From Candidatus Saccharimonadota bacterium (GTDB lineage Bacteria > Patescibacteriota > Saccharimonadia > Saccharimonadales > SZUA-47), in NCBI GenBank assembly GCA_020428465.1, contig JAGQMY010000009.1, positions 1-37,437 on the forward strand: 37,437 nucleotides of DNA, written 5' to 3'. The notes beneath the pieces are model-generated. The model saw only the letters and a program-made list of their open reading frames with translations, had not been told where the DNA came from and searched no databases. The position numbers and the translations under genes were made by a program. Below, one piece after another: positions 14,432 to 37,354 of the stretch (the stretch's first letter is position 1; each line of letters starts with the position of its first letter).

Positions 14432-14464
14432 TAAAAAACCCTCGTAAATCGAGGGTTTTTTAAT
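14432..14464. terminator. Bidirectional terminator between rplT and rnpB
   Basis: A stem of AAAAAACCCTCG and CGAGGGTTTTTT with a short loop. Ts follow on the plus strand after rplT, and the mirrored T-run serves the minus strand just after the rnpB 3' end. It closes both converging transcripts. Confidence 0.85.
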
Positions 14465-14465
14465 A

Positions 14466-14921
14466 CCAAACATACGAGTAAGCCGGGTTCTGTCCCCACA
14501 CCTTAATTGAAACGTTTAAACTGATGTTATAGCTAATCAAGGTGCGGGTGATAATCATCTATCTAGTCCGCTGATTGCTCAGAACGGATCAAGCGGTTTT
14601 TATCGCAAAATTCAGTAAGGCAACTGGCCGAATTCGGCAAAATTTCGCTCCTTGCAGCTGACAGGGTTTACCATTTTAGCAAGTCACCCTGCTAAACAAC
14701 GATTTTTTAATATTCGTTCTTTTCACCTTTTCCCCTCATCCCTACAGACGATATGGATACGCTAATTACTTCTATATCTCATCTGTAAAGATGAGGGGTA
14801 GTCTTGTTTCTGTGGCACTTTCCCTAAGATCACTCTTGGTTGCCGTTAGCAACTGTCAAACCTTAATGCTGCCCGGACTTTCCTCCCGCCAGCTGGCGGG
14901 CGATTATCACTGCATGTTTGG
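14466..14921 (-). ncRNA. rnpB: RNase P RNA (catalytic subunit)
   Basis: This ribozyme cleaves the 5' leader of pre-tRNA. On the minus strand the 5' part has the diagnostic GAGGAAAGTCCGGGC (14876-14890) and the 3' part ACAGAACCCGGCTTAC. The ends pair as helix P1: CCAAACAT (14914-14921) with ATGTTTGG (14466-14473). This gives about 456 nt, slightly long for a type A RNA. It begins about six bases after the stop of the RNase HI gene. Confidence 0.95.
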
Positions 14922-19312: not shown

Positions 19313-19907
19313 CGAAGTATTCTAATACCTCTTGCCAATTTCGACATCGTTCTAAGTGTTCTGGGGCATCAAAATGCCAACCATATTCACCAAATAATAT
19401 TGTATCTATCCCATGCGCCATAGCCGTCATGCAATGTTCTGGATTGTCGTCAATTAACCAGCTTGCACCTATTTGTTTGCAAATTTCACCTTTGGTTTTC
19501 GGTTTATCTACAACTTTAAAATTTCCAATAACATGTAGATCGTCATACATACCGCTAAAGTGCTTTTGTAGCCATTCTTCGGTATCTTCTCTAATTTTTG
19601 GATCTCTGGCTGTGATTAGTATAATTTTATACCTATCCGATAAGACTTTCAGTGCATCAATAGCTCCTGTTATAGGCTCCGATATATGGTGTGTTTGAGT
19701 CCACTCATCTATCACTTCTTGGTGTGTTGCCTTACTCTTAATGCCATTACTAATCATTACGTGTTCATAATAACCCCAATATGGACCACTTACTTTGTAG
19801 TGTTCCAATGTTAGGTTATGTCCCGTCTTATTATTAGCAATTTTTCTTATAGCATCTGTACTTCCAGCCAATACATCATCTATATCAACGGCAAGGACTT
19901 TTCTCAT
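19302..19907 (-). CDS. HAD-superfamily phosphatase, 5'-nucleotidase (NT5C)-like
   Basis: This 201-residue protein has HAD motif I VDIDDVLAGST (Asp8 nucleophile, Asp10 acid), motif II IILITARD, a motif III Lys near FKVVDKPKTKGE, and motif IV WLIDDNPEH. The closest pattern is the 5'(3')-deoxyribonucleotidase or YorS-like group. The substrate is not certain. Its ATG overlaps the thrS stop by four bases, so it is translated with thrS. Confidence 0.85.
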   Translation of the reverse strand: MRKVLAVDIDDVLAGSTDAIRKIANNKTGHNLTLEHYKVSGPYWGYYEHVMISNGIKSKATHQEVIDEWTQTHHISEPITGAIDALKVLSDRYKIILITARDPKIREDTEEWLQKHFSGMYDDLHVIGNFKVVDKPKTKGEICKQIGASWLIDDNPEHCMTAMAHGIDTILFGEYGWHFDAPEHLERCRNWQEVLEYFDGR

Positions 19908-21739
19908 AAACTACTTTTACTTACCCGACTTTTCGCTTCATTAGCAACAGACTTAAAGAAATTCTCATAAGGTCTAGATTGCGGTTCTTCTACCTGCAGG
20001 TCAGCCCTGATTCTTGGCGTGACTTCACCGGATTCGACTTCTTTCTGTCCTACTACAAGCATATAGGGCACCTTGTCTTTTTCAGCGTTTCTTATTTTTT
20101 TACCAACACTTTCGTTGTCATTATCGACTGTAATTCTCAAACCAAGATTTACTGCAGACTCTCTTAATTTTTCTACAAACTCAAGTGTCGAATCTTCTTG
20201 ATTTACACTGGCTATGCGTATTTGTTCAGGAGCAACCCACACTGGGAAACGCCCCGCCGTATGCTCAATATATACCGCCATAAACCGCTCAAAAGATCCG
20301 AGAAGTGCCTTATGGATCATCACTGGTCGCTTCCTATTACCTTCTTCATCTATATACTCTAGGCTGAATCGCTCAGGCTGTACAAAATCTAGCTGTTCAG
20401 TCGCTAGTTGCCACTCTCGACCCAATGCATCAGTAGCCATAATGTCGATTTTAGGACCGTAAAATGCCGCATCTCCCTCAGCAATAAAATAATCTATACT
20501 GAGATTCTTTGTCACGTCTTCAATCTGTTTTTGTGCTCTTTCCCACAATTTTTTATCGCCTAGATACTTGTCAGTATTATCCCGAAAACTTAAGCGTGCC
20601 TTCCACTTCAAATCAAACACCGCATACATTTCTTTGATCATATTCATAATAGCACTAAACTCTTCCTCAACTTGATCAATACGGCAGAAAACATGCGCAT
20701 CATCTTGCGTTGCACCGCGAACACGAGACAATCCATGAAGCTCACCAGCTTTTTCATCTCGGTAAACAGTGGTATTTTCCATGTAGCGTATTGGCAGTTC
20801 TCTGTAACTCCGTGGCCGACTCGCAAAAATCTGCGTATGATGCGGGCAATTCATTGGTTTCATCATAAATTCCGTATCACTCTCATAGCTTGTTACCGAG
20901 AATCGTTCCGGATATTTGTCGTAATGTCCTGATGTTTTGTATAAATCTGTCTTTGCAATATGCGGTATAGCTACCCGCTGATAGCCTGCATTTTTCTGCA
21001 ACTCCTGAGAAAATGACCCAATTTCCTCACGGATTACCGTCCCTCTAGGTGTAAACATTGGCAGTCCAGAGCCGACCAGATCAGAAAACACAAATAAATC
21101 TAGTTCTTGACCTAATCTGCGATGATCACGTTTTTTAGCTTCTTCTAGCATGTCTAGGTACGTTTTAAGATCTTCCTTGCTCGCGAATGCCACTCCATAT
21201 AACCTTTGCATCTGTGGATTGGTTTCTTTGCCACGCCAATAAGCCCCGGCTACTCTCATTAGTTTAAAAGCGCCAACTTCTCCTGTATTGCCAACGTGCG
21301 GGCCGCGACATAGATCTGTAAAATCGCCATTAGTATAGAAACCTACCTCAGAAACTTTGCTATCGCCACTTGCTAAAGTCCCCATTTCTTCAGCACTCAA
21401 ATCTTTAGCTACAGTCGTACCAGCACGTTTCAAATCGTTTAATAGTTCTTCCTTGTAAGGCTGACCTGCGCTCCTGGCCCATGAAATCGCTTCATCAATA
21501 GGCTTTTTCGTCTGCACAAAAGGCTGCTTAGCTTTAATTATGCTCTGCATTTCCTTTTCAATTTTCTTGAAATCAACTTCAGAAATTGTCACACCTGGTA
21601 TATCAATGTCGTAATAATATCCATTTTCTACAACCGGACCAACACCGAGTTTTGCCTTCGGCCAAAGTTTCATAACCGCCGATGCCATTATGTGGGCCAG
21701 GCTATGACGCATTGCATGTAAATTTTCGGTTTCTTTCAT
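19904..21739 (-). CDS. thrS: Threonyl-tRNA synthetase lacking the N-terminal TGS domain
   Basis: The enzyme charges tRNA-Thr and edits mischarged Ser. It has 611 residues and begins directly at the editing (SAD) domain, with HSLAHIMA near residue 13 and the CRGPH segment later. The roughly 60-residue TGS domain of the E. coli enzyme is absent. The class II core has motif 2 around RYMENTTVYRDEKAGELHGL and zinc Cys in MMKPMNCPHH. The C-terminal anticodon domain starts at WVAPEQIRIASV. ATG was chosen because AAGGGG (21748-21753) lies eight bases upstream. It is controlled by the T-box leader and heads a unit with three downstream genes. Confidence 0.95.
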   Translation of the reverse strand: MKETENLHAMRHSLAHIMASAVMKLWPKAKLGVGPVVENGYYYDIDIPGVTISEVDFKKIEKEMQSIIKAKQPFVQTKKPIDEAISWARSAGQPYKEELLNDLKRAGTTVAKDLSAEEMGTLASGDSKVSEVGFYTNGDFTDLCRGPHVGNTGEVGAFKLMRVAGAYWRGKETNPQMQRLYGVAFASKEDLKTYLDMLEEAKKRDHRRLGQELDLFVFSDLVGSGLPMFTPRGTVIREEIGSFSQELQKNAGYQRVAIPHIAKTDLYKTSGHYDKYPERFSVTSYESDTEFMMKPMNCPHHTQIFASRPRSYRELPIRYMENTTVYRDEKAGELHGLSRVRGATQDDAHVFCRIDQVEEEFSAIMNMIKEMYAVFDLKWKARLSFRDNTDKYLGDKKLWERAQKQIEDVTKNLSIDYFIAEGDAAFYGPKIDIMATDALGREWQLATEQLDFVQPERFSLEYIDEEGNRKRPVMIHKALLGSFERFMAVYIEHTAGRFPVWVAPEQIRIASVNQEDSTLEFVEKLRESAVNLGLRITVDNDNESVGKKIRNAEKDKVPYMLVVGQKEVESGEVTPRIRADLQVEEPQSRPYENFFKSVANEAKSRVSKSSL

Positions 21740-22138: not shown

Positions 22139-22271
22139 AATTAATGATAGACCAATTAGCAATATAATGCTAGTAGTTTTTTACCTGCCTTTTCCACAAT
22201 CTGTGGATTGAATAAAAATATATCACACATGGTAATAACCTTATAATACCTATGCTATCTACGATATATTT
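22139..22271. other. AT-rich intergenic stretch
   Basis: No gene is visible. It holds the short inverted repeat CCACAATCTGTGG (near 22193-22205), which contains half of a DnaA-box-like sequence, and TAGCAATATAATGCTA (near 22157-22172). Neither has a clear function. Confidence 0.4.
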
Positions 22272-22300
22272 TTGAATAAATAATAGTTTTCGGATATAAT
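22272..22300 (+). promoter_or_regulatory. Promoter of the nested tRNA-Val transcript
   Basis: TTGAAT (22272-22277), 17 bases, and a perfect TATAAT (22295-22300). Transcription would begin around 22307, ten bases before the outer tRNA 5' end. This shows that the composite locus is a transcribed unit. Confidence 0.8.
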
Positions 22301-22316
22301 TACATCTGTAATTTAG

Positions 22317-22501
22317 GGGCGATTAGCTCAGCTTGCCTGCCTAATCTGCTGGATCCGTAGCTCACTTGGCTAGAGCGTCTGATTGACGTTCAGAAGGTAA
22401 GAGGTTCAAATCCTCTCGGATCCACCAGATTGCGCAGGTAAAGCTAGAGCGCGGCATTGACGTTGCTGAGGTGAAAGGTTCGAATCCTTTATCGCCCACC
22501 A
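22317..22501 (+). tRNA. Outer tRNA-Val(GAC), interrupted in the D-arm by a complete tRNA
   Basis: All four canonical stems are intact if the insert is ignored. Acceptor GGGCGAT (22317-22323) pairs 7/7 with ATCGCCC (22491-22497). D-stem GCTC (22326-22329) pairs with GAGC (22447-22450). Anticodon stem CGGCA/TGCTG encloses loop TTGACGT (22457-22463) with anticodon GAC. T-stem AAAGG/CCTTT encloses TTCGAAT. A73 and CCA are encoded. Between the D-stem halves 117 bases extend the stem: AGCTT with AAGCT, GCCTGC with GCAGGT, AATCTG with CAGATT, capped by the inner tRNA. Whether a functional tRNA is made is unknown. Confidence 0.75.
22351..22427 (+). tRNA. Inner tRNA-Val(GAC), complete, with encoded CCA
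   Basis: A full 77-nt tRNA. Acceptor GGATCCG/CGGATCC, D-arm GCTC-ACTTGGCTA-GAGC, anticodon stem TCTGA/TCAGA with loop TTGACGT (anticodon GAC at 22385-22387), variable loop AGGTA, T-stem AGAGG/CCTCT with TTCAAAT, A73, CCA at 22425-22427. It has the normal D-loop GG and no mismatch in any stem, so it should be functional. It reads GUC and GUU. Confidence 0.95.
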
Positions 22502-22543
22502 TATAAAGGATGTTGAGTTCCTATTCAGCATTCTTTATATTTT
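22502..22543 (+). terminator. Terminator after the nested tRNA
   Basis: TATAAAG with CTTTATA form the base of an interrupted long stem that continues with ATG/CAT and TGA/TCA, followed by TTTT. It begins directly after the outer CCA. Confidence 0.75.
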
Positions 22544-22545
22544 AG

Positions 22546-22672
22546 GGGTTAGATTCGAACCGATAGGCGAAATATGCCAGTGGCATATTGAGGAATCCTT
22601 GCTTGGCCGAACGAGCGTGGCGAAGCCATGTTGTCGAGTGAGCATACGTAGTCGAATCCTTTATCGCCACCA
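22546..22672 (+). repeat. tRNA-associated element A (duplicated tRNA 3' end plus palindrome)
   Basis: It starts with an inverted T-arm-like sequence (GATTCGAAC at 22552). It then has a 19-base perfect palindrome AATATGCCAGTGGCATATT (22571-22589) and the motif GAACGAGCG (22609-22617). It ends with a direct copy of the outer tRNA 3' end, TCGAATCCTTTATCGCC plus ACCA (22652-22672), one C shorter than the tRNA. The same layout occurs beside the right-edge tRNA (37226-37354). No gene is visible from here to tgt. Confidence 0.55.
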
Positions 22673-22732
22673 TTTTGAAAATCTTTGAACAAAGTTCAGC
22701 ATTTATTAATATTGGTAAATGTATCTTTCAGT

Positions 22733-23812
22733 TTATTTTTTGTAATTTTCACACAGGCGGGTCATATGGCGAAGATTGTGAATACTGGCAAGTGTTCCTC
22801 CTAACGGATCACCTGCTTTGAACATTTGACGTAAGAAAGCTCTTGAGAACCCATTTTTACAGGTATAGCAATCACACGTTTCATCAATTACTGCTGAATC
22901 AAGCGTAAATTTCTCATTTGTTAAATGTATCTTTTCGCTATTTATACCCCACACCGAACCATGGCGTGCATTGCGTGTCGGCAACACACAGTCGAGCATG
23001 TCTATTCCGTTATCTACGGCGATCGCTAAATCTTCGGGAGTTCCAACACCCAGAAGGAAACGAGGCTTATCATCCCTATAAAGAGGAGCTAGTGTTTCCA
23101 GTACTTTTTTCATCTCTTCCCTAGTTTCGCCGACAGATAACCCACCGATGGCGATACCGTCAACATCACTATCCTGGACAATTTCCAAACTCCTTTTCCT
23201 CAGTTCCAGGTTTAGGCCACCTTGAACAACCCCGAATAATAGTGGTCTCTCTGAATCTTTCAAATCTTTGGTTAGTTTTTTAAACTCCACAATACAACGT
23301 TCTAGCCAGCGATGGGTTCGTTCAAATGCTTCTTCTATTTGTTTATTAGTTACGTTTTCGTCAAGCCCGACCAGATGATCAAAGGCCACAATCATATCCG
23401 CACCCAGATCAAGCTGTATTTGCATAGATATTTCCGGCGATATAAATCGTTTATCGCCTGTTTTTGGATCCTTAAAATGAACGCCATCTTCGGTAACTTT
23501 TACATGTTCACCGAGTGAAAATACCTGAAATCCACCCGAATCAGTCAGCATAGGACCTTGCCTGTTAACGAAATTATGTAGACCACCCAAGTTTTTTATA
23601 GATTTTTCGCCCGGCTGAAGATGTAGATGATATGTATTAGCTAGCACTATCTGTACACCGGTATCGGACACTTGCTGAGGTGTTAGTCCCTTAACCGCAC
23701 CCCTAGTACCGTCAGGCATAAATGTGGGTGTCAACACCTTTCCGGCTCTAGTGTGCAGTACGCCAATTCTAGCGTATTTGCCTATTTTCTTATCTTCAAC
23801 AAAGTATTTCAT
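22733..23812 (-). CDS. tgt: Queuine/preQ1 tRNA-guanine transglycosylase
   Basis: Tgt exchanges G34 of GUN-anticodon tRNAs (Tyr, His, Asn, Asp) for preQ1 or queuine. The general base is in TDSGGFQVFSLG, the substrate loop in GGLSVGE, the nucleophile Asp in DMLDCVLPTRNARHG. The zinc site is CDCYTC with the later His in ASIHNLRHM. I prefer the third Met (23812), which gives 359 residues starting MKYFVEDKKIGKYARIG and fits the family N-terminus. Upstream in-frame starts at 23827 and 23848 are possible. No other queuosine genes are in the window. Confidence 0.93.
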   Translation of the reverse strand: MKYFVEDKKIGKYARIGVLHTRAGKVLTPTFMPDGTRGAVKGLTPQQVSDTGVQIVLANTYHLHLQPGEKSIKNLGGLHNFVNRQGPMLTDSGGFQVFSLGEHVKVTEDGVHFKDPKTGDKRFISPEISMQIQLDLGADMIVAFDHLVGLDENVTNKQIEEAFERTHRWLERCIVEFKKLTKDLKDSERPLLFGVVQGGLNLELRKRSLEIVQDSDVDGIAIGGLSVGETREEMKKVLETLAPLYRDDKPRFLLGVGTPEDLAIAVDNGIDMLDCVLPTRNARHGSVWGINSEKIHLTNEKFTLDSAVIDETCDCYTCKNGFSRAFLRQMFKAGDPLGGTLASIHNLRHMTRLCENYKK

Positions 23813-23854
23813 TCTAATTTCATACATTCTAACAGAGGTAGTCCACAAAGTCTA

Positions 23855-37225: not shown

Positions 37226-37354
37226 TGGCGGGCCCGACCGGATTTGCCTGGGGTCGAGCGCAAAATGCGCTGACCTATTCCACCCCAACTTACTCTCGCT
37301 CGTTCTGGGGCTACGGGGCGGCCAGTGCCACTGGCACTGTCGTTCAAATCCGGG
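37226..37354 (-). repeat. tRNA-associated element B (duplicated tRNA 3' end plus palindrome)
   Basis: 37226-37246 repeats exactly the 21 bases of the tRNA 3' end at 37405-37425. Between them are the motif GAACGAGCG on the minus strand (37297-37305), a 17-base palindrome CAGTGCCACTGGCACTG (37323-37339) and an inverted T-arm GTTCAAATCCGG (from 37342). Read in the tRNA direction the order is the same as in element A. Confidence 0.6.

Follow-up and report, generated by a model that had tools for sequence, protein, structure and literature searches.

A tRNA-Val(GAC) gene nested in the D-loop of another tRNA-Val(GAC) gene, and related nests in Patescibacteria

Disrupted tRNA genes have been reviewed as intron-containing, split, tri-split and permuted forms (PMC4033280, PMC3978253), and a 2014 review found bacterial tRNA genes surprisingly uniform apart from their group I and group II introns (PMC4033280). 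In tRNA-dependent lysogeny, an integrating element breaks a tRNA gene and brings a substitute for it (Guerrero-Bustamante and Hatfull 2024, PMC10865867). Here we describe a locus in which a complete tRNA-Val(GAC) gene lies inside a second tRNA-Val(GAC) gene, an arrangement that we call a nest. It was found in a stretch of 37,437 nucleotides from a Candidatus Saccharimonadota bacterium (genome G000), referred to below as the window. In searches of the open-access literature, we found no published description of nested tRNA-in-tRNA genes.

Architecture and genomic slot of the nest

A sequence-only reading of the window had proposed a complete tRNA-Val within the D-arm of another, both with the same anticodon loop and with unrelated acceptor stems. 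All the elements were recovered between 22317 and 22501 (Table 1): the two tRNAs share the anticodon GAC and have dissimilar acceptor stems. The outer tRNA has a complete cloverleaf with its anticodon loop and an encoded CCA, and its D-loop is interrupted by an insert of 107 nt, 77 of which form the inner tRNA. Its stems still pair as had been claimed, with 7/7 pairs in the acceptor (GGGCGAT/ATCGCCC), 4/4 in the D stem (GCTC/GAGC), 5/5 in the T stem (AAAGG/CCTTT) and 5/5, including one G.U, in the anticodon stem (CGGCA/TGCTG). Because the insert parts G18 from G19, the outer D-loop is not restored without splicing. The flanking arms said to present the inner tRNA at the tip of a helix are also present; the helix is interrupted by a C.C mismatch and a bulged A and includes two G.U pairs, and C75-A76 of the inner CCA form part of its innermost arm.

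The inner tRNA was called by both ARAGORN and Rfam (RF00005, 67.1 bits). The outer one was missed by both at normal thresholds, and Rfam with a permissive threshold detected only its 3' part (21.5 bits). Since these programs call the inner gene alone, nests are easily passed over. In the minimum-energy fold of 22317-22501, each tRNA forms its acceptor stem and its T-arm, and the extended D-stem connects the two. The energy of this fold is -86.3 kcal/mol (z = -6.9 versus shuffles, 0 of 200 shuffles being as good), with predicted mean pair probabilities of 0.96 for the outer and 0.99 for the inner acceptor. The linker duplex is stronger than that formed by shuffled arms (p of about 0.001-0.003). 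A chance resemblance of the outer part to a tRNA was ruled out by these fold statistics and by the orthology to intact tRNAs described below.

A single promoter and a single terminator had been claimed to bracket the locus. The TTGAAT-17-TATAAT boxes are present, but such matches are no commoner than in shuffled sequences; a promoter is supported by TATAAT-like boxes similarly spaced ahead of several intact outer-type orthologues. A hairpin followed by a T-rich stretch lies at about 22503-22543, but a simple scan did not score it as a terminator. Rfam run permissively also returned a weak, sub-threshold RAGATH-28 match at 22543-22626.

Table 1. Features of the nested locus and its surroundings in the window
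Feature	Coordinates	Strand	Basis
RNase P RNA gene	14463-14920		Rfam
thrS, conserved upstream neighbour of the slot	19904-21739	-	homology and synteny
Promoter-like TTGAAT-17-TATAAT, upstream of the outer tRNA	22272-22300	+	sequence match
Outer tRNA-Val(GAC), 5' part, GGGCGATTAGCTCAGCTTG (acceptor and D-stem 5' strands, D-loop to G18)	22317-22335	+	orthology, fold
5' linker, 15 nt, pairing with the 3' linker and inner CCA	22336-22350	+	inverted repeat, fold
Inner complete tRNA-Val(GAC), encoded CCA, GGATCCG-type acceptor	22351-22427	+	ARAGORN, Rfam
3' linker, 15 nt	22428-22442	+	inverted repeat, fold
Outer tRNA-Val(GAC), 3' part, GCTAGAGCGCGGCATTGACGTTGCTGAGGTGAAAGGTTCGAATCCTTTATCGCCCACCA (G19 to CCA; anticodon, T and acceptor 3' strands)	22443-22501	+	88-90% and up to 97% identity to intact orthologues
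Terminator-like hairpin, T-rich tail	22503-22543	+	inverted repeat
Second copy of the outer tRNA 3' end (TCGAATCCTTTATCGCC-ACCA), attachment-site-like	22652-22674	+	direct repeat, 17/17
tgt, downstream neighbour of the slot	22733-23848	-	homology and synteny

The outer 3' part is 87-97% identical to intact tRNA-Val(GAC) genes of relatives from the same family and order. These intact outer-type genes read GGGCGATTAGCTCATTTGGCTAGAGCG... and, in most of the relatives sampled, adjoin thrS and/or tgt as in the window; those beside thrS in most genomes sampled from the order are 87-95% identical. When the outer tRNA was aligned with them, no random mismatches appeared in its stems, the stem differences keeping the pairing: compared with most family members, the anticodon stem has changed from A-U to G-C and from C-G to G.U, and the T stem from G-C to A-U. 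Part of these pair-keeping changes may predate the insertion. The D-loop bases at the junction also differ from those of the relatives and now pair across it.

The type of the inner tRNA, a tRNA-Val(GAC) with a GGATCCG acceptor, stands alone in the thrS/tgt slot of another family member (G010) and lies beside thrS at two other loci (L090 and L115). The thrS-side slot also holds GGGTCCT types (40 loci examined), with a GGGTACG type in the congener G001; in three Saccharibacteria assemblies (L120-L122) a tRNA-Val of the same type as in the window lies beside thrS. Judged from these comparisons, the outer gene is the resident of the thrS/tgt slot and the inner one a newcomer type. The slot thus changes tRNA type between lineages, and the window has two at once. 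In L120, L121 and L122, a copy of the tRNA-Val(GAC) 5' half is separated from the intact tRNA by about 100 nt that include an inverted copy of the D-arm. These three Saccharibacteria loci, retrieved by a search for the outer-Val pattern in 85k species, were rejected as nests, being 5'-half duplications upstream of an intact tRNA.

Recurrence and common anatomy of nests

We derived a first covariance model from 17 artificial nests, the window being excluded; it ranked the window top among the test loci, ahead of tandem tRNA pairs. With the best 7 candidates scored per genome, the window alone passed E<=1e-24 among 393 genomes of the order, and seven others, corresponding to five nests and two tandem tRNAs, passed 1e-22 among 380 genomes of the phylum. 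A second covariance model, to which the linker helix was added, parts D-loop nests from tandems better. It recovered four further nests from the 55 genomes of the class of G670, the best 50 candidates per genome being scored. Applied to 236 tRNA occurrences in the examined loci, a detector added a Leu(TAG) nest in the genome of the window, and an Asp nest in G001 was added by inspecting a locus with a strong flanking helix. Three model hits (L132, L133 and L167) were discarded as plain tandem tRNA pairs. In all, at least 12 nests were identified in 9 genomes, 11 of them besides that of the window. These counts are lower bounds given the number of candidates scored per genome (7 for the phylum and order, 50 for the class), and the share of decayed outer tRNAs is underestimated because the search models and the detector favour paired ones.

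G000 thus encodes two nests, Val(GAC) and Leu(TAG), and its congener G001 the Asp nest. Ala nests were found in G503 (GGC), G670 (GGC) and G417 (CGC), an Ile(GAT) nest in the single-contig assembly of G452 (L131), a Val(GAC) nest in G707 and an Arg(GCG) nest in G756. The remaining genome, G537, which belongs to a small Patescibacteria class in which at least 6 of 55 genomes have at least one nest, has three: Ile(GAT) (L128), Val(CAC) (L168) and Thr(CGT) (L169). In the Leu(TAG)-inside-Leu(TAG) nest (L026, G000:C1:3750-4250, minus strand), the D-loop carries a hairpin insert and the outer tRNA is of a GCGGATG type found intact and un-nested in G001, after a similar upstream gene end.

The isotypes of inner and outer tRNAs, the latter read from the same anticodon bases or from G3.U70 for Ala, are the same in every nest whose outer identity is legible, which is at least 11 of the 12 (all but L168). 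Insertions fall in the D-loop or D-stem, in the anticodon arm and, once, in the T-arm. The outer acceptor pairs 7/7 in 11 of 12 nests (in L165 it pairs 6/7 and the CCA is lost), the outer T stem 5/5 again in 11 of 12 (the T-arm is broken in L062, from G001), and in 10 of 12 the outer acceptor does not share the sequence of the inner one. Wherever the outer tRNA has a paired T-arm and an encoded CCA (10 of 10), a 7/7 acceptor partner lies upstream of the inner tRNA; by chance, such a partner occurs in 1.0% of the upstream regions of unrelated tRNAs (ten loci tested).

The sequence beside the inner tRNA is paired in most nests. Fisher-combined p values for the flanking helices were 1.6e-10 over the 12 loci and 1.8e-6 over the seven not selected on pairing, the single-locus values being weak for L130, L131 and L166. 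Ordinary tRNAs displayed no excess of flanking helices, with a mean z near 0, and the window copy was conservatively counted among them. The flanking inverted repeats were rejected as transposon ends, their sequences differing in every nest. Beyond the nested tRNA, outer loops carry extra inserts that are mostly hairpins (L128, L130, L131, L168 and L026). The outer anticodon loop is gone from an intact or lengthened stem, with a short loop in its place, in L127, L129 and L168, while L169 and L026 lack D or anticodon strands. In L166 (Arg in Arg), the outer tRNA is complete save for its insert. Nests are a recurrent architecture in Patescibacteria, and the class that we propose combines a complete inner tRNA, paired outer acceptor and T stems, the same isotype for both and a flanking helix, all of which are present in the window.

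Other tRNA loci of G000 and G001 carry marks of a different kind. Of the tRNAs examined in these two genomes, about one in four has a copy of its 3' end 90-185 nt further downstream, the outer Leu copy being counted; besides the one listed in Table 1, such copies, about 120-185 nt from the tRNA, occur at 37226-37246 (minus strand), L011, L019 and L174 in G000 and at L053, L061, L062, L066 and L172 in G001. In several cases a TGCCAGTGGCA-like palindrome stands before the copy. The copies resemble scars left at attachment sites by small elements that target tRNA genes, and the 5'-half copies of L120-L122 are integration-like as well, the resemblance being only suggestive. At L124 (G000:C81:24588-25268, minus strand), a tRNA-Met-like gene with a CAT anticodon is interrupted in its anticodon loop; the insert, about 600 bp long, is probably an ORF-containing group I intron. 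At L078/L134 (G001:C11:6152-6832), the gene for a 227-aa HTH-containing protein runs into the first bases of a tRNA-Val(GAC), and elsewhere in the order genes for distant relatives of this protein lie near tRNA-Val(TAC) and tRNA-Leu(GAG). A role as homing endonuclease is a lead at most, since only weak HTH- or transposase-like matches were returned by Pfam, NCBIfam, PHROGs and PDB. Finally, at L171 (G001:C1:14000-14900) a tRNA-Leu(CAA) is followed by a degenerate near-complete copy of itself, and the direct repeat AAAGACGTTAAAAGAC trails both.

In-place replacement and its alternatives

We consider it fairly probable that at this locus an essential tRNA gene has been replaced in place, with both copies still there and the older, outer one probably non-decoding. 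A DNA segment with a foreign tRNA-Val(GAC) belonging to a different sequence type would have been inserted between G18 and G19 of the resident, whose promoter would now transcribe the whole locus, inner gene included. The inner tRNA would fold by itself at the tip of the helix that prolongs the outer D-stem. A cut by RNase P at 22351 would free its 5' end, and an endonuclease acting in the helix or the linker, followed by trimming to the encoded CCA, would presumably generate its 3' end. The pairing of the leader with the inner CCA could, on the predicted fold, slow RNase P. The outer tRNA would be left as two pieces held by about 25 predicted pairs and, GAC decoding being supplied by the inner one, would be redundant, persisting as a folded shell that probably does not decode. 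Such replacements would have happened repeatedly in Patescibacteria, their probable start being integrating elements that broke a tRNA gene and brought a same-isotype substitute. Two readings of the isotype match suggest themselves: the disrupted tRNA being essential, only matching insertions may survive, or insertion may be targeted.

No integrase was found in any nest and no donor element in the insert of the window, where 107 nt, 77 of them tRNA, leave no room for an integrase. Two exact-pattern scans of viral contigs returned no donor of the inner Val or Leu tRNA, and phage records yielded generic tRNA-Ala similarity only.

The sequence-only reading had also envisaged a split or intron-containing outer tRNA. 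The outer gene would then be functional, the inner tRNA and linkers acting as an intron and the halves being either joined at G18/G19 or used as a nicked two-piece tRNA held by the D-arm helix. Excision of 22336-22442 would indeed give a normal tRNA-Val with G18G19 (the junction would run from ...AGCTTG to GCTAGAGC...), all outer stems pair, a strong interaction between the two outer pieces is predicted once the inner tRNA is removed (-21.9 kcal/mol), and the outer tRNA of L166 is likewise complete apart from its insert. However, RtcB (PF01139) was not matched in the genome, which is 98.6% complete, and RNase P leaves 5'-phosphate ends that are not used by RtcB-type ligation. No group I or II core was detected in 22150-22750 by Rfam at a permissive threshold, and the predicted fold has no bulge-helix-bulge at the junctions, a 4-bp helix flanked by two 3-nt bulges being absent. 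Elsewhere, the outer tRNAs of L127, L129, L168, L169 and L026 have lost the anticodon loop or D/anticodon parts, which splicing cannot restore. Since no RtcB and no intron core were found and decoding by the outer tRNA would duplicate that of the inner one, the outer tRNA is most likely inactive, and we regard a functional outer gene as quite improbable. The outer tRNA of the window has no damage beyond the insertion, so that a loss of function is not visible at the locus.

Another explanation, which we judge unlikely, is that the outer shell is selected for a non-decoding job, for instance as a precursor that defines ends, protects the transcript or presents the inner tRNA to enzymes. It would account for the 7/7 acceptor and 5/5 T stems of most outer tRNAs even though acceptor sequences differ, for the hairpin inserts in outer loops and the anticodon loops swapped for short ones on intact stems, and for helices of arbitrary sequence around the inner tRNA. 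Paired acceptor and T stems in otherwise old-looking nests are unexpected under pure decay, but the models and the detector favoured paired outers, the T-arm of L062 and the acceptor and CCA of L165 have been damaged, and the predicted folding of the inner tRNA barely depends on the outer one. With shuffled linkers the inner acceptor probability fell only to 0.89 from 0.99, and a shuffled outer acceptor left the inner tRNA unaffected, giving little support in silico to a shell acting as folding chaperone. Only tentatively do we suggest that nested same-isotype tRNAs form a distinct recurrent class in which the shell and its arbitrary-sequence helix are kept as a processing scaffold and which possibly spread as tRNA cassettes into their own isotype. 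As the assembly consists of 111 contigs, two tRNA-Val loci could also have been joined by an assembly or binning artefact. This is very improbable: the junctions lie within a fold that is coherent and has complementary arms, 9 genomes carry nests, among them the single-contig assembly of G452, and the Leu nest sits where the congener has an intact tRNA.

Nested genes among known tRNA systems

Under in-place replacement, a tRNA inside a tRNA would offer a direct route for exchanging an essential gene without a lethal gap, and this route would explain the differing tRNA types in one chromosomal slot of sister lineages. It also raises a question of processing, namely how an internal tRNA whose CCA is paired is released.

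The gene architecture may be categorically new, and the process akin to tRNA-dependent integration. In tRNA-dependent lysogeny (PMC10865867), however, the substitute lies elsewhere in the phage genome, together with an integrase; for the nest, neither an integrase nor a phage was found. The nest consists of a tRNA and short paired linkers alone, placed within the broken gene and apparently under its promoter. Nests resemble the disrupted tRNA genes of the reviews (PMC4033280, PMC3978253) in being interrupted in the D, anticodon or T region, with halves that still pair through extra complementary sequence. Those of archaea and eukaryotes rely on bulge-helix-bulge splicing, whereas the insert of a nest is a complete tRNA of the same isotype, with no splicing route evident. 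The Caldiarchaeum tRNA gene disrupted by a mobile element (PMC3293823) is archaeal and involves tRNA introns, without a complete nested tRNA. Group I introns of bacterial tRNA genes are likewise insertions in a tRNA gene; in contrast to them, the insert of the window has no catalytic core and carries a tRNA.
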